Shown: one piece after another, positions 47,448-57,503 of the stretch
Layout of the letters: every line of letters starts with the position of its first letter
How positions within the stretch are numbered: position 1 is the first letter of the stretch
Position numbers and translations under genes: made by a program
Source: Natronorubrum sulfidifaciens JCM 14089
Lineage (GTDB): Archaea > Halobacteriota > Halobacteria > Halobacteriales > Natrialbaceae
Direction: 5' to 3'
DNA: 64,000 nt
Assembly (NCBI RefSeq): GCF_000337735.1
Contig: NZ_AOHX01000045.1
Coordinates: 17,230-81,229 of the forward strand
Notes under the pieces: model-generated
What the model saw: the letters and a program-made list of their open reading frames with translations, nothing else
Told to the model about the DNA's origin: nothing
Database searches by the model: none

Positions 47448-47597
47448 ATGGCCGAGAGCCTCATCGAATCGCTGGTGTTCGCGCTCGCGCTGATCGCGGG
47501 GCTCGTCACCCTCTCGCTTCCCTGGCTCGCAATCGACTGGTGGACCGCAAACCGATCGGCTGCAGATCACGACGACGATGAGTCAGACGACAGGTGA
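47448..47597 (+). CDS. Small membrane protein, 49 residues
   Basis: ATG 47448 to TGA 47595-47597. A single hydrophobic stretch (LVFALALIAGLVTLSLPWLAI) is preceded by MAESLIES and followed by a polar, acidic tail (ADHDDDESDDR). A TATA-like gttttaag (47415-47422) lies about 25 nt upstream of the start, which supports independent leaderless transcription. Function unknown. Confidence 0.5.
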   Translation: MAESLIESLVFALALIAGLVTLSLPWLAIDWWTANRSAADHDDDESDDR

Positions 47598-47662
47598 AAT
47601 ATGCCCGGCGAGAGGTGTGGAACTGTACGCTTATACGGTTCTGTGGCGTGTGCTCGAACGTC

Positions 47663-48628
47663 ATGCGAGCTGTACGCCTTCACGAACACGGTGACGCGGA
47701 TGTACTGCAGGTAGACGAGGTCGATCAACCCGAGCCCGACAGTGACGAGTTGCTCGTCGAGGTGGCTGCTGCGGGGGTCAACCCCGTCGACACCTACTTC
47801 CGGGATGGCTCCTACGAGCCGGTTTCGGTCCCCTTCACACCGGGCGTCGACATTGCCGGCGTCGTCGCGGAAACCGGCGCGGCCGTCACGGGGTTCGAAG
47901 AAGGCGACCGCGTCTTCGGCACCGGCATCGGCAACGCCTCCGCACAGGGCGCGTACGCCGAGTACGCGACGATTCCGACGGATCGCGTCGTTCACCTCCC
48001 CGACGACGCGGACTTGACTGAGGCCGGCGCGGCGGGCGTCGTCGCCGTCACCGCCTGGCGCGCGCTGGTCGACCACGCCGCCCTCGACCCCGCCGAGTAC
48101 TGTCTGGTCCACGGTGGCTCCGGCGGCGTCGGCCACGCCGCCGTCCAGATCGGGGCTGCAGTCAGCGCCCGCGTCATCACCACCGCGTCCGAGGACTACC
48201 ACGACGACCTCGAGGGCCTCGGTGCCGAAACCGTCCTCGACTACGCGCGCGACGACCTCGCTGAGGCCACGCTCGAGGCCAGCGACGGCGGCGTCGACGT
48301 GATCCTCGACCACCGGCTGGACGACTACCTCCAGTTCGACGCGGACGTCGCCGCGACGGGCGCTCGCGTCGTCGGCATCGGCGAGAACAGTCCCGATCCG
48401 GCGTTTACGAACGACGGGGCCGCCCGCTCGAAAGACGTCAGCTACCAGTTCATGAGTATGTTCAACACGCCGGATCTGCGCGTCCCGCTGCGTGGCGTGG
48501 CCCATCTCATGGCGACGGACGCGCTGTCGATCGAGATTGCCCGAAGCTACGACCTCGAGGAGGCTGGGCAGGCCCAAGACGATGTGATGACCGAGAGCAG
48601 CCTCGGGAAACTCGTCATCGAACCCTGA
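47663..48628 (+). CDS. NADPH:quinone oxidoreductase-like (zinc-independent MDR)
   Basis: 321 residues from ATG 47663 (MRAVRLHEHGDADVLQV). It is a medium-chain dehydrogenase/reductase of the QOR type: AAAGVNPVDTYFRDG without zinc-binding cysteines, TPGVDIAGVV, and the nucleotide fold LVHGGSGGVGHAAVQIGAA. Reduces quinones or enoyl/enone compounds with NADPH in related enzymes; substrate here unknown. Confidence 0.9.
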   Translation: MRAVRLHEHGDADVLQVDEVDQPEPDSDELLVEVAAAGVNPVDTYFRDGSYEPVSVPFTPGVDIAGVVAETGAAVTGFEEGDRVFGTGIGNASAQGAYAEYATIPTDRVVHLPDDADLTEAGAAGVVAVTAWRALVDHAALDPAEYCLVHGGSGGVGHAAVQIGAAVSARVITTASEDYHDDLEGLGAETVLDYARDDLAEATLEASDGGVDVILDHRLDDYLQFDADVAATGARVVGIGENSPDPAFTNDGAARSKDVSYQFMSMFNTPDLRVPLRGVAHLMATDALSIEIARSYDLEEAGQAQDDVMTESSLGKLVIEP

Positions 48629-48753
48629 GACGGCGACGACTGCACACCGGCGTCGAGCCACTCGAGGGAGTCGAATCTCGATCGAGAGCCACCAGACGAT
48701 CCAGAAATCCGACTCATCCATACCGCTAAGCCAACGGCAGTCGTGGCTGTCCT

Positions 48754-49011
48754 ATGGGACAAGCTGTCAAGCTCAATGGCCTCGAGACGGTGCTCGAGGA
48801 CCTCGACTACCCGATCACACAGACCGCAGCCGTCGATCAGTGTGACGACGTGACGCTGATCCTCGCCGAGGGAGAGGTAAACCTCGGCGAGACCGTTGCT
48901 GACTCGGGCGGCGACACGTTCGAGTCGATGGACGATCTGGAAACGGAGGTGTTCAACTTACTGCCCCGAAACGCCGTCGGGGAACCCTACCAGTCCGAAG
49001 GGGAAGGATAG
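48754..49011 (+). CDS. DUF5789 family protein
   Basis: 85 residues. It matches the small haloarchaeal DUF5789 family in its whole length, ending in the near-invariant LLPRNAVGEPYQSEGEG; the LETVLEDLDYPIT start is also typical. Probable small single-domain regulator or adaptor; function unknown. Confidence 0.85.
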   Translation: MGQAVKLNGLETVLEDLDYPITQTAAVDQCDDVTLILAEGEVNLGETVADSGGDTFESMDDLETEVFNLLPRNAVGEPYQSEGEG

Positions 49012-49035
49012 TGATAGCGACGGCGCGCGAGACCG

Positions 49036-50118
49036 TTACGCCAGTTCGCTGACCGCGTGCATCGTCGTCTCCTTTTCGGCGTCGGACATCCCGTCGACGA
49101 AACCGATGCGGACGGCGTCGACACCCTCGAGGGCAGCGTAGTCTGTGACCCACTCGCGGACCTCGTCGGGCGTGCCCGCCGGAGCCAGTTCGTCGAGCAC
49201 TTCGTCCGGCAGGGCGGCGGCCATCGCGTCGGTATCGCGCTCGCCCCAGGCGTCTCGGATCTCGGAAACGACTTCGGGATAGCCCTGCTCGGCGACCGAA
49301 TCGCCGTAGTAGGGGCCGTAGGCACCGAGCATGAACGCGATCGTCGAGCGGGCTTTCTCGCGTGCCGCCTCGCGATCCTCGCTTGCGATACCACGAACGA
49401 TCGGGGCGACACGCAGGTCCTCAAGCGACTTCTCCGCGAGGTCGGCCCCGCGAGCGAGATCCTCGAGGCGTTCCTCGAGGCCGTCTCTCGTGAACATCTG
49501 TGGGGCCCAGCCGTCGCCGAAGCGGCCGGCCATCTCGGTCGCCTTCGGCCCGAGGGTAGCGAGGTCGATCGGCGGCGGACTCTCGGGGACGTCGCGTTCG
49601 TAGTTGAGCCCGGCGATGTCGAAGATCTCGCCTTCGTAGGCCGGCGAGCCGGTTTCGTAGACCGCACGGATGATCTCGACGGCTTCGCGGGTGCGTCGCA
49701 GCGGGCGCTCGAAGGCCTTGCCGTGCCAGCGCTCGGTGATCGCGGGCGAACTCGGGCCGAGTCCCAGTCTGAAGCGGCCGTCGGAGGCGTCGTGCAGCGT
49801 CAGCGCCGTCTGAGCGAGCATGGCGGGCGAGCGCCCGAACGGCGAGATGACGTCGTTGGAGATACCGAGTTCGTCGGTGCGATCGGCCGCGAGCGTCAGC
49901 GGCGGCACGATGTTCCAGCCGGTCGTCTCGCCGACGGTGAGCCGGTCGAAGCCCAGCTCCTCGGCCTGAACAGCCCGATCAGCGACGTCCTGTGGGGTCT
50001 CGTAGTCGTTGAGACTCACCAGCAGATCCAGTTCGGCGTTCACGCGTGCTCCCTCCGCGGCGACTGTCGGTTCGTGTGACTGTTGTGCATCATCAGCTAC
50101 CGCGTCAGCCACTCCCAT
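49036..50118 (-). CDS. F420-dependent LLM-class oxidoreductase (TIGR04024-like)
   Basis: 360 residues; the first ~25 lack family character, and GTG at about 50043 (VNAELDLLVSLNDYETP) may be the real start. LLM-fold features: AEELGFDRLTVGETTGWN, ISPFGRSPAMLAQTALTL, GRFRLGLGPSSPAITERWHG. The architecture is that of methylenetetrahydromethanopterin-reductase-like enzymes specific to haloarchaea. Substrate unknown. Confidence 0.88.
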   Translation of the reverse strand: MGVADAVADDAQQSHEPTVAAEGARVNAELDLLVSLNDYETPQDVADRAVQAEELGFDRLTVGETTGWNIVPPLTLAADRTDELGISNDVISPFGRSPAMLAQTALTLHDASDGRFRLGLGPSSPAITERWHGKAFERPLRRTREAVEIIRAVYETGSPAYEGEIFDIAGLNYERDVPESPPPIDLATLGPKATEMAGRFGDGWAPQMFTRDGLEERLEDLARGADLAEKSLEDLRVAPIVRGIASEDREAAREKARSTIAFMLGAYGPYYGDSVAEQGYPEVVSEIRDAWGERDTDAMAAALPDEVLDELAPAGTPDEVREWVTDYAALEGVDAVRIGFVDGMSDAEKETTMHAVSELA

Positions 50119-50152
50119 AAAGTATTGTCACTCCGTCTCGAGAAGCGCGCCG

Positions 50153-50593
50153 TCACTGCTCGTCGGCCGGAGACTCGAGGATCGCCCGACAGATCCGCTT
50201 TGCCGACTCGAGGTGGGCGTCTGCGTCCTCGTGGCCAGTGTCGTCGATCTCCGAGAGCAGTTCCCGAACCGTTGCGACGCGCTCGCGAACCGTCGCGTCC
50301 TCGAGGTCGCTCGTCGCGGCGTCGGCGGCGATTGCTTCGGCTTCGCCGAGCCAGCGACTCGCGGTCCGGTTGACGGGAACGTCGGCAGTCGCCTCGAGTC
50401 GGTGGGAGAGTTGGCGGACCTGCACAGCGATCCCTCGCTCGCTGTCGTCGGCTGCCGCTGGGGACGAGTCGTCGGTCACTGACGGGAGTACGACGGCGAG
50501 TCCCGTAACTGTTGGCTGACGGCCGGCGATCAGTCGTGGCTCGTCGCCGCCAACGACGGTCAACTCCTGACTCGGTTCGTTCGATGGTGGCAT
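50153..50593 (-). CDS. Hypothetical acidic protein
   Basis: 146 residues from ATG 50593 (MPPSNEPSQELTV). A beta-rich first third (LTVVGGDEPRLIAGRQPTVTGLAVVL) is followed by helices rich in Asp/Glu (WLGEAEAIAADAATSDLEDATVRERVATVRELL). No family recognised. It is divergent from the glcD-like gene with 57 bp between the starts, so the two share a promoter region. Confidence 0.6.
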   Translation of the reverse strand: MPPSNEPSQELTVVGGDEPRLIAGRQPTVTGLAVVLPSVTDDSSPAAADDSERGIAVQVRQLSHRLEATADVPVNRTASRWLGEAEAIAADAATSDLEDATVRERVATVRELLSEIDDTGHEDADAHLESAKRICRAILESPADEQ

Positions 50594-50650
50594 CTCGAGT
50601 ACGAGCAGGCTGGTGAAAACGTTGATACCGAACGCCGCCAACGTGGGCGT

Positions 50651-52090
50651 ATGACACACGATTGTTCGTTTCTCGAGGCCCTCGACCTCGAGGACGACCA
50701 GTTATCCGTCGCCGAGAGCCGGCGCGAGTCTCATGCTGCCGACTGGGGTGCACAACAGCGCGGAGAGGGCGTCCGGCCCGACGCGGTCGTCTGGCCCGAG
50801 TCCACGGCCGACGTGTCGGCCGTTCTCGCGGCAGCGACCGACCGCGGCGTTCCAGTCACGCCCTACGCCGCGGGGACCGGGCTCGAGGGCAACGCCGTGC
50901 CCGCCGACGGCGGAATCAGCCTCGATCTAACCCGAATGGACGACGTCGTTGAGTACCGGCCCGACGACTTCCAGATCGACGTCGGCCCCGGAGTCATCGG
51001 CTCGGCCGTCGACGAGTACGTCGCCCCCGATGGCCTCTTTTTCCCGCCGCTTCCCTCCTCGGGCGACATCTCCACGGTCGGCGGCATGATCGCGACCGAC
51101 GCCAGCGGGATGACGACTGTCAGATACGGCGAGGTCGCCGACTGGGTGCTCGGCCTCGAGGCCGTGTTGGCCGACGGCACCGTTATCGAGACGGGGTCGC
51201 GGGCGGTCAAGACCTCGAGCGGCTACAACCTGACCGAACTCATTGTCGGCAGCGAGGGCACACTCGCGGTCGTCACCGAGGCGACGCTGGAGCTCGCGGG
51301 GCGACCCGAGCAGGTCCGCGGCGGACGAGCCATCTTCGAGACGCTCGACGACGCCGCCGAAGCCGTCTTCCACACCGTCCGGACGGCCGTCGACGTTGCC
51401 CGGATCGAACTCGTCGACGGGTTGAGCGCCCGGATGGCCAACGCGTATCTCGACGCCGACCTGCCGGACGCACCGATGGTCTTTCTCGAGTTCCACGCCA
51501 ACCACGGCGTCGACGAGGAGATCGCGCTCTGTCGAACGATCTTCGAGGACCACGACGTCGCCCGCTTCGAGATGAGCGACGACGACGCCGAGATGGATGC
51601 CCTCTGGCGCGCCCGCCGGGAACTGGCCTACGCGGTTGCGAGCTACGATCCCGACCTCGAGACGCTCCATCCCGGCGACGTCACGGTGCCGATCAGTTCC
51701 TACCCCGAGATCGTCCACGAAGCGAAACGCCTCGGCGAGGAGTACGACCTGCTCGTCCCCTGTTTCGGCCACGCGGGCGACGGCAACCTGCATTACACCG
51801 TCCTCGTCGATCCCGACGATTCGGCGATGGTCGAGTGTGGCGAGGAACTCTACGCGGCGGTTGTCGAACAGGCGCTCGAGTTGGGCGGCACAGCGACCGG
51901 CGAACACGGTATCGGACAGGGAAAACGCGAGTATCTCGAGGCCGAACACGGCACTGGCGCGGTCGAAACGATGCGCACGGTCAAGCGCGCCCTCGATCCG
52001 ACGGGAACGCTGAATCCGGGGAAGATCTTCCCCGAGACGGCGTCAGGTGCGCGGGTTCGTGCGGGCGGTGCGCTTGAGACGGAAGAGTAA
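50651..52090 (+). CDS. FAD-linked 2-hydroxyacid dehydrogenase (GlcD/D-lactate dehydrogenase-like)
   Basis: 479 residues. N-terminal VAO-type FAD domain: PDAVVWPESTADVSAVLA, VTPYAAGTGLEGNAVP, FFPPLPSSGDISTVGGMIATDASG and LTELIVGSEGTLAVVTEATL. The C-terminal FAD-oxidase domain has CFGHAGDGNLHYTVL and TATGEHGIGQGKR with metal/substrate histidines. It oxidises a D-2-hydroxyacid (glycolate, D-lactate or an aromatic equivalent) to the 2-oxoacid. A decayed second copy lies at 54221-54470. The TPP decarboxylase 3.7 kb downstream could use its product. Confidence 0.92.
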   Translation: MTHDCSFLEALDLEDDQLSVAESRRESHAADWGAQQRGEGVRPDAVVWPESTADVSAVLAAATDRGVPVTPYAAGTGLEGNAVPADGGISLDLTRMDDVVEYRPDDFQIDVGPGVIGSAVDEYVAPDGLFFPPLPSSGDISTVGGMIATDASGMTTVRYGEVADWVLGLEAVLADGTVIETGSRAVKTSSGYNLTELIVGSEGTLAVVTEATLELAGRPEQVRGGRAIFETLDDAAEAVFHTVRTAVDVARIELVDGLSARMANAYLDADLPDAPMVFLEFHANHGVDEEIALCRTIFEDHDVARFEMSDDDAEMDALWRARRELAYAVASYDPDLETLHPGDVTVPISSYPEIVHEAKRLGEEYDLLVPCFGHAGDGNLHYTVLVDPDDSAMVECGEELYAAVVEQALELGGTATGEHGIGQGKREYLEAEHGTGAVETMRTVKRALDPTGTLNPGKIFPETASGARVRAGGALETEE

Positions 52091-52109: not shown

Positions 52110-53960
52110 TTATTCGGTATTGTCGAGTAAACCGTGTTTCAAGAGATAGCCAACGCCGCCAAGTCCAGCAAGAGCACCCACGACGCCAAAGCCCGGGCTG
52201 CCGTCATCGTCTGAAACGTCATTTGTCTCATCGTCCATCCCCGTTTCGTCACCTGTTGTGTTATCTGCCTCTGAGTCTACATCTATCTCGCCCTCGATTC
52301 CCGTTTCGTCGTCTTCTGTGTGATTGACTACCGAGTCTGTGTCTGTCTCGTCGTTGTCTTTTTCATCTTCGGCGGAAACATCGTCTGTTTCGGTAACAGT
52401 AACTCTATCTGTAAACTCTCTTTCACTCCCATTTTCTAGAATGACGGTTAGTGTGATCAGTTGTTCTCCTGCATCCTCGTAGGTGTATGTAACAGTCTCC
52501 CCGACTGCAGTGTCTCCAGTCCCGAATTCCCACAGGTAGTTAGTAATATCGCTGGTACCACCTGTTGAACTCGAAGCGTTCAACTCAACCGTATCACCGA
52601 CTGTCGGATTCTTTGGAGTTAATTCGAACTCTGGTGTTGCTCTGATCGTCTGGCCAAACTCACTCACATCTTTACCCTCGAGACTCCGCCTGTGAAACGC
52701 TACAACGTCGTCGATTGCTGGTTGTGGAGTATGACCCGCATCCTCATAGACGCGGAACTGTGCTTCGACTCCCGCCTCCTGGTATGCTTCCTGACACCGG
52801 GGGAACCGTTCTTCGATCATGTCGTCGCCGTATACTTCTAGTGCGATTTGTCGAAGTTCGTCGTCGGTCCACGCATCACTGTATGGAATCGTGTCGTTGT
52901 TGTCTTCTGCACCCATGTAGAGGAATTGATTTACCTCGTCAAGTGCGTCCAAATCAACCGGCTCGTCCGTCAGTTCTGCAACATCTGCAATTCCAACGTG
53001 ATACGGCAGTGTATGTCCCTCAGCCTCCTCCAGCGGGAGTATAGCCATCCCGTTGAGCCCACCAGCGGTCACTGACAGAACTCGATCAGGATGGAGCATC
53101 GTGAACCGATCGACAAAATTCCCCGATGCAGAAAAGCCATTAAGCATGATCCCATCGGCGACTGGGTATCCTTGATCTGTAAGTCGATCCTGTGCATGCT
53201 CTACCATGCTGAGTAACTGGAGATCAACTCGCTCTAGTGGTCCGGACTCAAGTGAAAGCGTAGTATCGTCGAGTTGATGCACGTAGTGGTTTCCATCAAC
53301 TGGCTCCGCTCTCGGACGCGGGAACACGGGAACAATGAACGGGGCAAGGAGTTCACCAGCAATTTGTCTGCCAAATCCACCAGAGATAGTCCGCTCACCA
53401 GCTTTCCGGTGCTCTTCAAACTCATCGCTGACTGTTCCTGTGTTGGTTGGCTCGACCAGCAGCGATTTCGGCTCCTCGTCTTCGAACGTATCTGGTGCGT
53501 AGAGATAGTACGGATAATTAAATCCCGCATTGGGATTGGCATCAATCAGTTGTGGCTCCACACCATTGATCCGCTCTGGAAGATTATCACCGACACTGAC
53601 CAGCGCGTCATCGCGTTCGAGCCGGGAGCCGCCCGAGGCCGGATACGCCCTTGCTGATAGGGTCTGTGATTCAGTGATCTGATCAGTCAGCGTGATTGTA
53701 ACATCTGTAGCCACACCGGCGTCAAGGTTGGTTCTCCCGATAGAGTTATTCTCATCCCGAATAGACACGAATATATCTTTATTCGTTGCTACCTCTGCAA
53801 TAACAACTGATCTTCCGTTAGACTCTTGATCCTCAAACGTGATTGAAACATCCGGTTCGCTTCCACGGACATGACCGCTTCCTGCACCGATGGCTGCCAC
53901 CCCTGCGAGACAACCGCCAGTCGTTTTTAATAATGTTCGCCGTTCAGTAAACATATTCAT
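52110..53960 (-). CDS. Secreted, surface-anchored PKD-domain esterase
   Basis: 616 residues. A Tat-type signal (MNMFTERRTLLKTTGG, then an Ala/Gly-rich h-region) precedes an alpha/beta hydrolase domain with nucleophile elbow LNGFSASGNF and a plausible catalytic His in YEDAGHTPQP. A PKD domain follows (about 455-535; NPTVGDTVELNASSSTGG, YTYEDAGEQLITLTV), then a Thr/Asp/Glu-rich linker. The end, GSPGFGVVGALAGLGGVGYLL, is a PGF-CTERM-like sorting signal for archaeosortase. Codon use is more AT-rich than in the flanking genes, suggesting transfer. Confidence 0.85.
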   Translation of the reverse strand: MNMFTERRTLLKTTGGCLAGVAAIGAGSGHVRGSEPDVSITFEDQESNGRSVVIAEVATNKDIFVSIRDENNSIGRTNLDAGVATDVTITLTDQITESQTLSARAYPASGGSRLERDDALVSVGDNLPERINGVEPQLIDANPNAGFNYPYYLYAPDTFEDEEPKSLLVEPTNTGTVSDEFEEHRKAGERTISGGFGRQIAGELLAPFIVPVFPRPRAEPVDGNHYVHQLDDTTLSLESGPLERVDLQLLSMVEHAQDRLTDQGYPVADGIMLNGFSASGNFVDRFTMLHPDRVLSVTAGGLNGMAILPLEEAEGHTLPYHVGIADVAELTDEPVDLDALDEVNQFLYMGAEDNNDTIPYSDAWTDDELRQIALEVYGDDMIEERFPRCQEAYQEAGVEAQFRVYEDAGHTPQPAIDDVVAFHRRSLEGKDVSEFGQTIRATPEFELTPKNPTVGDTVELNASSSTGGTSDITNYLWEFGTGDTAVGETVTYTYEDAGEQLITLTVILENGSEREFTDRVTVTETDDVSAEDEKDNDETDTDSVVNHTEDDETGIEGEIDVDSEADNTTGDETGMDDETNDVSDDDGSPGFGVVGALAGLGGVGYLLKHGLLDNTE

Positions 53961-54088
53961 CTGTTATCAGCCACATAGAACGAACCCTATTTATAATATG
54001 TGGCCGAAATGACCTGTGGTGTATGTGGTATTTATTTTCTAACTAGTTCCTTCTTCTCACTTAAACATCATTTATCCACACATAATAG
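53961..54088. other. AT-rich intergenic stretch
   Basis: About 130 bp of AT-rich sequence upstream of the PKD-esterase start. It probably holds that gene's promoter (rich in TTTATAAT and TTTATTTTC-like blocks) and marks the edge of the acquired segment. No gene is visible. Confidence 0.4.
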
Positions 54089-54220
54089 CTAAAAATAGTC
54101 CATCGGTTCTTCAGTAACGAATTTAGCGGCCTCGAGTGGATTGTGGACCAACACGTCGAGCACGTCGACGCCCTCGCGAGTCAGTGTGTTCTCGATCATC
54201 CCTTCGATTTCGTCTGGCGA
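54089..54220 (-). pseudogene. C-terminal fragment of a second TPP-dependent decarboxylase
   Basis: Read on the minus strand, the fragment encodes SPDEIEGMIENTLTREGVDVL, then DVLVHNPLEAAKFVTEEP and a stop at 54089-54091. The first part matches the end of the intact decarboxylase (55812-57503: SPDGIERALEDALAREGVDV, then LDVLVHD). The fragment has its own longer tail, so it comes from a paralogue and is not a recent copy. Its 5' side is cut off at about 54220, where glcD-like sequence on the other strand begins. Confidence 0.8.
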
Positions 54221-54470
54221 CCTCCGAGGATCACGACGTTACCCCCTTCGAGATGAGCGACGATGATGCCGAGATGGATGCCCTCTGGCAAGCGCGCCGA
54301 AAACTAGCCTACGCGGTGCCAGCTACGATCCTTTCCCTCGAGCCGCTCCATCCCGGCGACGTAATCAAGCGCGCGCTCGACCCGACGGGAACGCTGAATC
54401 CGGGGAAGATCTTCCCGAATGGGGCAAGCAGGTTCGTATGGGCGGTGCGCTCGAGACGAAAGACGAGTAG
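54221..54470 (+). pseudogene. Decayed 3' fragment of a second glcD-like gene
   Basis: The fragment is collinear with the intact glcD-like gene. DHDV, then FEMSDDDAEMDALWQARRKL and HPGDV match 51547-51684. After an internal deletion of about 300 bp, IKRALDPTGTLNPGKIFP matches 51983-52034. The end (gggcggtgcgctcgagacg) matches the glcD terminus but is out of frame. It has no 5' half and cannot be functional. It abuts the decarboxylase fragment at about 54220. Confidence 0.88.
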
Positions 54471-54532
54471 CCCTCGTGCAGTCACCGGCAGTCTTTAGAA
54501 GAATTAAACGATCCCTCTGAGTAACTGACGCT

Positions 54533-55777
54533 GTGGACGACAACGATCGCTCTATCGTCGGGTTCGTCATGGTCGGACATGCGATGGTGCACACCTACGA
54601 ACTCTCGATTCCGATCCTGATGACGATCTGGCTGCTCGAGTTTTCGACTACTGCGGCGATGTTGGGTGTCGCGGCGACGGTCGGCTACGGGCTGTTCGGC
54701 ATCGGTGCGCTACCGGGCGGCCTGCTGGTCGATCGGTTCGGCTCGCGGACGTTGATCAGCGCCTGTCTGGCGGGGATGGGCTTATCGTTTCTGGCCTTGA
54801 GTCTTGCCTCCGGTGTCGTCGGGGTCACGATCGCGCTGGCGCTGTGGGGAATCGCCGCGAGCATCTATCATCCCGCAGGGCTGACGCTCATCAGCAACGG
54901 CGTCGAGGAACGCGGTCGAGGGTTCGCCTATCACGGGATGGCCGGCAACGTCGGCATCGCTGGCGGCCCGCTGCTCACGGCGGTGTTGTTGCTTGCGTTC
55001 GACTGGCGGGTCGCAGCAGCGATTCTCGCCGTGCCGGCGCTACTCGCTGCCGTCATTGGCATGCGAATCCAGTTCGATCCGACTGCGGCGGTCGAGGTAA
55101 CCGACGGCGGACGAACCCGAGAGATTCCGACATCGCTCGCCGAGTTCGGCAGCGAGACGCGACGGCTGTTCACCCTCGGCTTTCTGCTGGTGTTCGTCGT
55201 CGTCGCGTTCAACGGCCTGTACTATCGGGGCGTCCTGACGTTCCTCCCGGACCTGCTCGGCGATTTCCTCACAGCAGCCGTCGGCGACGTCCGGCCTGGT
55301 TTCTTCGATCCAGATAGCCCAGTCGCCGCGGAGTTCGACCTGTCGCAGTATCTCTACGCCGCGCTGTTGTCGGTCGGCATCGGCGGGCAGTATCTGGGCG
55401 GTCGGCTCACGGATGCGATCGAACCCGACCGCGGACTGATCATCATGCTGTCGCTGCTTACCGTCATCGCGCTGCTGTTCGTCCCCGCGGCACAAGCGGG
55501 ACTGTGGGGACTGTTGGTTATCAGTTTCATCCTCGGCTTCGTCCTATTTGCGATGCAGCCGCTCACGCAGGCGACGATCGCGAAATACTCGAGGCCGGAA
55601 TCCAGAGGGTTCTCGTTCGGCTACACCTACCTCGCGATCTTCGGCATTGGGGCCCTCGGTGCGGCGATCGTCGGGACGACGCTCACCTACGCCTCCGTCT
55701 CGGCCCTGTTCGTCGTGCTCGCGTCCTTCTCAGCGCTTGGAGGCCTGTTCGCGGTCGCGCTCGTGACGCGCTCGTAG
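54533..55777 (+). CDS. MFS transporter
   Basis: 414 residues with about 12 hydrophobic segments, read from GTG 54533 (no upstream ATG in frame). The A-like motif between helices 2 and 3 is GGLLVDRFGSRTLIS, and the second half has GGRLTDAIEPDRGL. It sits between the decayed glcD/decarboxylase fragments and the intact decarboxylase, so uptake of their substrate is a reasonable inference; the actual solute is unknown. Confidence 0.88.
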   Translation: MDDNDRSIVGFVMVGHAMVHTYELSIPILMTIWLLEFSTTAAMLGVAATVGYGLFGIGALPGGLLVDRFGSRTLISACLAGMGLSFLALSLASGVVGVTIALALWGIAASIYHPAGLTLISNGVEERGRGFAYHGMAGNVGIAGGPLLTAVLLLAFDWRVAAAILAVPALLAAVIGMRIQFDPTAAVEVTDGGRTREIPTSLAEFGSETRRLFTLGFLLVFVVVAFNGLYYRGVLTFLPDLLGDFLTAAVGDVRPGFFDPDSPVAAEFDLSQYLYAALLSVGIGGQYLGGRLTDAIEPDRGLIIMLSLLTVIALLFVPAAQAGLWGLLVISFILGFVLFAMQPLTQATIAKYSRPESRGFSFGYTYLAIFGIGALGAAIVGTTLTYASVSALFVVLASFSALGGLFAVALVTRS

Positions 55778-55811
55778 GCGTTCGAGCCCCGGGTTTTGGC
55801 GCAACCTCGAG

Positions 55812-57503
55812 TCAGTCGTGAACTAACACGTCGAGTACGTCGACGCCCTCGCGGGCCAGCGCGTCCTCGAGCGCTCTCTCGATCCCGTCGGGCGATTCCA
55901 CGCGCTCGGCGCGGGCCCCGTGGCTCTGGGCGTTCTGGACGAAGTCGACGGCTGGCTCGAAGTCGATGCCGGTGAACGCGTAGTCGTCCTCCGTGCCGCC
56001 CATGAGTTTCAGCGTGTTGTCCTTCAGGATGCGGTAGTTGCGGTTGTCCGAGATGACAACTGTGAGATCGACCCCATGGCGGGCCGCGCTGTAGATCGCG
56101 TGGGGGTAGTAGAGATAGGAGCCGTCGCCGATGAAGCCGACGACGTCGCGCGGGTCGTCGCGCTGGCTTTCGGCGATGGCTGCACCCACGGACGCAGGGA
56201 GCCCGTAGCCGAGGCCGCCGCCCTTGTTCGAGATGTACTGCTCGGGCGCGAGGTCCCAGCGGGCAAGCATCGCGTACTTCGAGGTGATCCCTTCATCGAC
56301 GACGTACGCATCGCCGGCCACGCGCTCCATCGCATCGACGAGTTCGGCTTTCGACGCTCGAGGGTCGTCTTCGGCGTCGCCCGTCCCCATCTCGGACAGC
56401 TTCGGCTCGGCCATCGCCTTGACCGCGTCGACATGCTCGAGGCGTTCCTCGACGGTCGCGTCGGAAATGCGTTCTCGGACGCGCTCGAGCAGCCCTTGGA
56501 GGATCAAGCCGGGATCACCCACGATGGCTGCGTCGGCGGGCTGGTTCTTGCCGACCTGCCAGTCGTCGTCGCTGAGATGGATACAGGTCGTCTCCGAGTC
56601 GACCAGCGCCTCCTCGTGGCGTGTCAGCGTCGTGTTTGTCGAACAGCCGGCGAAGACGACCGTATCGGTGTCGAGCAACGTCCGGGCGAGGTCTTCGTTC
56701 GGCGGGATGTAGGAGACCCACTGGTCGTGGTCGGTGGGGAAATCCACCTCGGAGGAGAGAATCTCGCCGTGGACGCGAGCGCCGGTCGCCTCCGCGAGGT
56801 CGACTGCCGCAGCGACGGCATCTGCGCCCGACCGCGCGACGTGGTCACCGACGACCAGCACCGGGTTCTCGGCCTCGGCCAGCAGGTCGGCGGCACGCTC
56901 GAGTTGGGCTGGATCGCCGCCGCCGGCGTTTGGAATCGGACCGAGCCGTTCGGGTTCGGCGTCGGTTTCGGCGAGCATGACGTCGAGCGGAAGGCCGAGA
57001 AAGACAGGCCCGGTCGGCGGCGTCATCGCGACGCGAAACGCCCGCCGGAGCATCGTCGGCAACGCGGCGACGTCCAACACCTCGTCGGACCACTTGCAGA
57101 ACTGCTCGGCCATCCCGACGAGTTCGCCGCTCAGAATGGGCTCCTCGTGGCGGAAGTCGGTGCTGTGGTTGCCCGCGGTGACGACCAGCGGCGCGCCGGT
57201 GATCTTGGCAGCATAGAGGTTGCCGAGGCCGTGAGCCAGCCCCGGCGCGATATGGAGGTTCGCCACGCCGACGGGCGTGATCGACTCGTCATGATGGGCG
57301 TGATACCGTCGTGTCTGAGCGTAGCCCGATGCCATCCCGACAGCGATGTCTTCGTGCAATCCGAGGATGTACTCGAGGTCGCTCGTCCCGATCGATTCGA
57401 TGATCGGCAACTCCGTCGTCCCCGGGTTGCCAAAGACGTAGTCGACGCCGTAGGACTCGAGTGCGTCGGCGAAAAGATCGGCACCGGTGTAGCCTGCAGT
57501 CAT
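55812..57503 (-). CDS. TPP-dependent decarboxylase (benzoylformate-decarboxylase/acetolactate-synthase family)
   Basis: 563 residues with the three domains of the family. N-terminal PYR domain: VDYVFGNPGTTELPI and LGLHEDIAVGMASGYAQ, with the catalytic Glu in LHED. Central domain: PVLVVGDHVARSGADAV. C-terminal PP domain: GGLGYGLPASVGAAIAE and FIGDGSYLYYPHAIYSAARH, with Mg/TPP-binding VVISDNRNYRILK (GDG-x-NxxN-like). It decarboxylates a 2-oxoacid; an aromatic oxoacid such as benzoylformate is the usual label. It is divergent from ubiA across a gap with a strong inverted repeat. Confidence 0.9.
   Translation of the reverse strand: MTAGYTGADLFADALESYGVDYVFGNPGTTELPIIESIGTSDLEYILGLHEDIAVGMASGYAQTRRYHAHHDESITPVGVANLHIAPGLAHGLGNLYAAKITGAPLVVTAGNHSTDFRHEEPILSGELVGMAEQFCKWSDEVLDVAALPTMLRRAFRVAMTPPTGPVFLGLPLDVMLAETDAEPERLGPIPNAGGGDPAQLERAADLLAEAENPVLVVGDHVARSGADAVAAAVDLAEATGARVHGEILSSEVDFPTDHDQWVSYIPPNEDLARTLLDTDTVVFAGCSTNTTLTRHEEALVDSETTCIHLSDDDWQVGKNQPADAAIVGDPGLILQGLLERVRERISDATVEERLEHVDAVKAMAEPKLSEMGTGDAEDDPRASKAELVDAMERVAGDAYVVDEGITSKYAMLARWDLAPEQYISNKGGGLGYGLPASVGAAIAESQRDDPRDVVGFIGDGSYLYYPHAIYSAARHGVDLTVVISDNRNYRILKDNTLKLMGGTEDDYAFTGIDFEPAVDFVQNAQSHGARAERVESPDGIERALEDALAREGVDVLDVLVHD

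Follow-up and report, generated by a model that had tools for sequence, protein, structure and literature searches.

A probable recombination scar in a convergent dehydrogenase–decarboxylase gene slot of Natronorubrum sulfidifaciens

A pair of gene fragments in the archaeon Natronorubrum sulfidifaciens JCM 14089 (positions 54089–54470 of the window, the whole 64,000-nt stretch of DNA analysed here) is probably a recombination scar, left when a second version of a variable gene slot was stacked in tandem on the first by recombination in the flanking genes, and then eroded. The slot is flanked by an intact glcD-like dehydrogenase gene (GLCD) and an intact decarboxylase gene (DEC), and the fragments are remnants of a second copy of these two genes (GLCD′ and DEC′). 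The order in the window is GLCD(+), PKD-domain protein(−), DEC′(−), GLCD′(+), MFS transporter(+), DEC(−) (Table 1), so that DEC′(−) and then GLCD′(+) stand between GLCD(+) and DEC(−), in the order and on the strands of the inner junction of a head-to-tail tandem duplication. Stacking is supported by the convergent orientation of GLCD and DEC in all 81 loci where both were found, by the variable content of the slot, by a second case in Natronococcus, by the apparently native arrangement of the right unit, and by the divergence of the GLCD 3′ end.

Table 1. Coordinates of the slot, its flanking genes, and the scar in the window.
Feature	Positions	Strand	Domains or evidence
GLCD, intact glcD-like FAD-linked 2-hydroxyacid dehydrogenase, left flank of the slot	50651–52090	+	PF01565, PF02913
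PKD-domain protein, secreted, cargo of the left unit	52110–53960	−	DUF7282, PGF-CTERM sorting signal
DEC′, decarboxylase 3′ fragment	54089–54220 (homology 54130–54220)	−	blastn E 3e-14; nhmmer E 8e-12
Scar junction	54218–54220	.	CGA in both fragments: 3-nt overlap of the two blastn alignments
GLCD′ part 1	54218–54362	+	Intact gene positions 887–1031; 86% nt, E 5e-42
GLCD′ part 2	54363–54474	+	Intact gene positions about 1330–1436, after a ~300-nt deletion; 83–89% nt
MFS transporter, cargo of the right unit	54533–55777	+	PF07690
DEC, intact thiamine-diphosphate decarboxylase, benzoylformate-decarboxylase-like, right flank of the slot	55812–57503	−	PF02776, PF00205, PF02775

A blastn search of positions 54060–54500 against the window gives three significant off-diagonal matches. 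Two fall inside the intact GLCD (54218–54362 with 51537–51681, 86% nucleotide identity, E 5e-42; 54365–54463 with 51981–52086, 83%, E 1e-24) and one at the 3′ end of the intact DEC (54130–54220 with 55805–55895, 77%, E 3e-14), whereas all remaining matches have E values of at least 0.02. The original prediction of back-to-back remains of a second decarboxylase, on the minus strand, and a second glcD-like gene, on the plus strand, was thus right. Searches of the whole genome with the two intact proteins place close extra copies of GLCD and DEC only at these fragments. The 299 nt between the two GLCD matches are absent from GLCD′, which also has a 1-nt deletion, a 1-nt insertion, and more gaps near its 3′ end, its second part retaining a GGALET-like C-terminal end. 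Mismatches between GLCD′ and the intact copy number 4, 5, and 10 at the three codon positions, against 1, 0, and 6 between the intact GLCD of the window and that of a related genome, G002. This more even distribution indicates relaxed constraint, as for a pseudogene, and both relics are most likely without function. A chance open frame of 120 codons with a GTG start (54136–54498, plus strand) crosses DEC′ in antisense and continues along GLCD′, and might be annotated automatically as a gene.

The C-terminal tail of DEC′ had been taken as the mark of a distinct, older decarboxylase. The normal stop codon of DEC, TGA at 55814–55812, corresponds to CCA at 54139–54137 in DEC′, and the flanking CTCGAG is still alignable. 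The frame of DEC′ continues past the lost stop into noncoding DNA and ends at a chance stop at 54091–54089. The resulting tail of 16 codons (54092–54139) is absent from all 199 related genomes searched, where decarboxylase matches reach the end of the protein and stop at or near the normal place. Hence, the tail is read-through after loss of the stop codon in a decayed copy. An older origin is also at odds with the tree of the scar columns, in which GLCD′ lies inside the Natronorubrum thiooxidans/bangense group (100/93).

We collected 128 distinct decarboxylase loci, with their flanks, from haloarchaeal genomes. A GLCD-like gene is found nearby in 81 of them, and the two genes are convergent in all 81, none being divergent or in tandem; in the remaining 47, the sequence examined contains no GLCD, for some because the contig ends. 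This bears directly on the origin first proposed for the fragments, an ancestral divergent pair of older paralogues whose 5′ halves were both removed by one deletion. The orientation of DEC′ and GLCD′ agrees with such a pair, and a single deletion taking both 5′ parts does fit the data. However, with no divergent locus among the 81, with the tail of DEC′ explained by stop loss, and with GLCD′ and the intact gene in a single clade, an ancestral divergent pair is very improbable. The divergent look comes from the tandem order, which puts the left unit's decarboxylase next to the right unit's glcD-like gene.

With the window included, gap lengths between GLCD and DEC run from 39 bp to 7.9 kb, and the gaps contain 128 ORFs at least 90 aa long (some of them spurious), which fall into 60 clusters, 40 of these being singletons. 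Because both length and content vary, the convergent junction can be described as a variable cargo slot. Its contents are mutually unrelated: an MFS transporter and a PKD surface protein in the window, and kinase-like and lipoprotein-like ORFs (judged by eye from sequence) elsewhere. The PKD and MFS genes are present in no other surveyed GLCD–DEC gap. The nearest relatives of the PKD protein, about 50–55% identical, are found in other members of the family, none of them within the surveyed gaps, and across scattered haloarchaea its relatives are only 46–55% identical; a GFSASG motif in this protein suggests an alpha/beta-hydrolase core. In Halorientalis marina (L072, 11696–12072), the final 28 bp of the GLCD match recur twice in the 377-bp DEC–GLCD gap, as tandem repeats with 148-bp spacing.

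The MFS gene was considered as a constant part of the module and rejected as such, its 82% relatives in genomes G007 and G008 (N. thiooxidans) being situated elsewhere in those genomes. A relic of an MFS 5′ end nevertheless lies directly after GLCD in both G002 and N. thiooxidans, scoring above all 1000 dinucleotide shuffles in each case. As GLCD′ is followed by MFS in the window just as GLCD is followed by the MFS relic in these two genomes, the arrangement of the right unit appears to be native. The DEC protein has its closest relatives in the same two genomes (94–95% identity). In loci L150 (G002) and L040, the relic, just downstream of GLCD, stands before a gene with a twin-arginine-like N-terminus.

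When all gaps were searched with profiles of the DEC and GLCD 3′ ends, convincing abutting DEC′(−) and GLCD′(+) fragments were confined to the window, Natronococcus amylolyticus (L061), and, more weakly, another Natronococcus locus (L071). In L061 the two matches are adjacent and on the correct strands (nhmmer E 1e-3 for DEC′ and 2e-5 for GLCD′); the scar in L052 is apparently more eroded. Positions 3–1517 of the L061 gap correspond, unbroken and at 89% identity, to the entire L056 gap, where a kinase-like gene lies between GLCD and DEC, plus 57 nt of the L056 DEC 3′ end, and positions 1493–2193 correspond at 91% to the scar, the lipoprotein gene, and the DEC-proximal part of L071. The two halves match different relatives: L061 holds two stacked slot versions and shows how such a state comes about. 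Weak adjacent matches in L116, L158, L087, and L066 were taken as chance, having high E-values or unmatched parts of the models. Where the DEC profile matches at the extreme end of a gap, it has picked up the final codons of the intact DEC, and the short low-score GLCD or DEC matches seen in many gaps are compositional.

The flanking genes also carry traces of exchange. Where cargo differs, pairs of relatives lose 3.9% identity at the GLCD 3′ end, and where it is the same, 1.7% (Mann-Whitney p 4e-4, the pairs not being independent). On the DEC side there is no extra boundary divergence, a point against stacking. The GLCD of G002 (3728–5164 in L150) differs from the window gene by 5.6% before, and by 16.6% after, an abrupt switch near position 960 (p 2e-10). 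A mosaic window GLCD with a donor 3′ end was considered for this pattern and set aside. The G002 gene also drops in identity against N. thiooxidans and the window gene does not, which makes G002 the likelier mosaic. As far as the sequences tell, exchange with breakpoints in GLCD has likely occurred within this group.

The proposed history would start from GLCD(+) and DEC(−) placed tail to tail on either side of a variable cargo slot. A further slot version, consisting of a GLCD 3′ end, other cargo, and a DEC 3′ end, would have joined the first to give [GLCD–PKD–DEC′] [GLCD′–MFS–DEC]. During or after this joining, the inner DEC and the inner GLCD would have lost their 5′ parts, so that their 3′ ends came to abut, and later GLCD′ would have lost 300 nt while both fragments decayed. 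The added unit would most likely have come from another cell and paired by homology in GLCD or DEC. Its inner end would then have been joined illegitimately, without long homology; such an event is consistent with the 3-nt overlap at the junction, which is too short as proof, and the end joined by homology could not be placed within the window. Either illegitimate joining or unequal crossing-over may have produced the scar.

The most serious rival has the same tandem-scar core but gives the second unit a different source. GLCD–MFS–DEC would have been duplicated within one genome, a deletion would have run across the inner DEC and GLCD, and PKD would later have replaced the left MFS, with no foreign allele involved. 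The same gene order results, the MFS relics in G002 and N. thiooxidans show MFS to be native beside GLCD, and no single slot with an intact PKD or MFS gene, as expected of the parent alleles of the window, was found among 125 family genomes, which counts against stacking. However, this history needs three events, the intact window copy does not stand out as the closest to GLCD′, and in the window and Natronococcus alike the two units carry different cargo, each Natronococcus half matching a different relative. Duplication within one genome is thus unlikely, although for the window it has to be taken seriously.

Somewhat less probable still is a single ancient scar predating the split of Natronorubrum and Natronococcus and partly homogenised with the intact GLCD by gene conversion. 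The junction architecture is alike in both genera, the internal deletions of GLCD′ overlap, and a joint origin of the window and L061 scars is not rejected by the AU test (p 0.58); placing GLCD′ outside the group of four intact genes is likewise not rejected (p 0.31). Yet the window scar groups with the thiooxidans/bangense GLCD and the L061 scar lies within Natronococcus GLCD (96/88), the deletion ends differ, and no scar was found in the other Natronorubrum species surveyed. The tree favours separate events in the two genera, but the stretches compared are short and the L061 branch is long. An assembly artefact comes to mind for a draft genome of 63 contigs, but it is hardly credible, as the fragments differ by 13–23% from the intact copies and so are no mis-joined reads of them, and a similar scar is present in an independent genome.

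Tandem stacking of a second slot version, our preferred reading, may tentatively be extended. The GLCD–DEC junction would be a recurrent cargo slot of Halobacteria that uses the homology of its flanks, sometimes stacks incoming alleles rather than swapping them, and gains in each eroded scar a new homology handle for later exchange. Such use of a scar is suggested by L061, where kinase-like cargo from an L056-like source extends up to the DEC′ relic and is followed by an L071-like scar and lipoprotein gene.

The original prediction also argued that finding the same pair twice means that the two genes work together. This argument carries little weight, since neighbouring genes are copied together in a single tandem event regardless of what they do; the convergent pairing conserved across Halobacteria is a better one, and does suggest a functional link. 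The best solved relatives of GLCD are the D-lactate dehydrogenase 8jdc and LctD, and those of DEC are benzoylformate decarboxylases. GLCD scores 355.7 bits against the glycolate oxidase subunit GlcD (TIGR00387, NCBIfam), under the curated cut-off of 567.9, and DEC scores 312.1 bits against benzoylformate decarboxylase NF005485, under the cut-off of 493, so that the two are only glcD-like and benzoylformate-decarboxylase-like. The conserved pairing suggests that the intact proteins may act in sequence, a 2-hydroxyacid being oxidised and the resulting 2-oxoacid decarboxylated, and so points to a possible 2-hydroxyacid pathway yet to be characterised. A literature search for this decarboxylase in haloarchaea returned nothing. 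Beside GLCD (47594–50659) lie a quinone-oxidoreductase-like gene, a luciferase-like monooxygenase gene, and a fast-changing ORF of 168 aa, an arrangement conserved in most Natrialbaceae loci.

The scar is ordinary in kind, and its interest is that it is clear, recurrent, and readable. The tempting reading of a relic divergent operon is corrected: where the 3′ ends of two convergent neighbours abut, they instead record additive recombination. Should this hold generally, such scars would make it possible to count stacking versus swapping of accessory genes in haloarchaea. Orphan remnants from successive displacement are known at T6SS effector loci, where they are attributed to homology-facilitated illegitimate recombination (PMC5361080). 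As in those loci, new cargo lies beside a conserved anchor and the 3′ remnants of the displaced unit are pushed back; unlike in them, the remnants come from two flanking metabolic genes rather than from immunity genes, the host is an archaeon, and there is no apparent selection to keep the remnants. Streptococcus pneumoniae forms merodiploids, with tandem duplications arising upon DNA uptake (PMC3784515). There too a region is repeated in tandem with content differing between the copies, but mostly with 100–900 kb between repeats, against a few kb, already eroded, in the present case. Replacement flexible genomic islands, including those of Haloquadratum walsbyi, are exchanged by homologous recombination in their flanks (PMC4033161). 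The slot resembles them in its conserved flanks with non-homologous content in related genomes (81 convergent loci, 60 ORF clusters) and perhaps in extra substitutions at one boundary, seen on the GLCD side and not on the DEC side. It differs from them in that its alternative contents are not of equivalent function, in being a small slot of one to a few genes of mixed functions rather than a surface-structure cluster, and in the additive stacking that leaves a scar.
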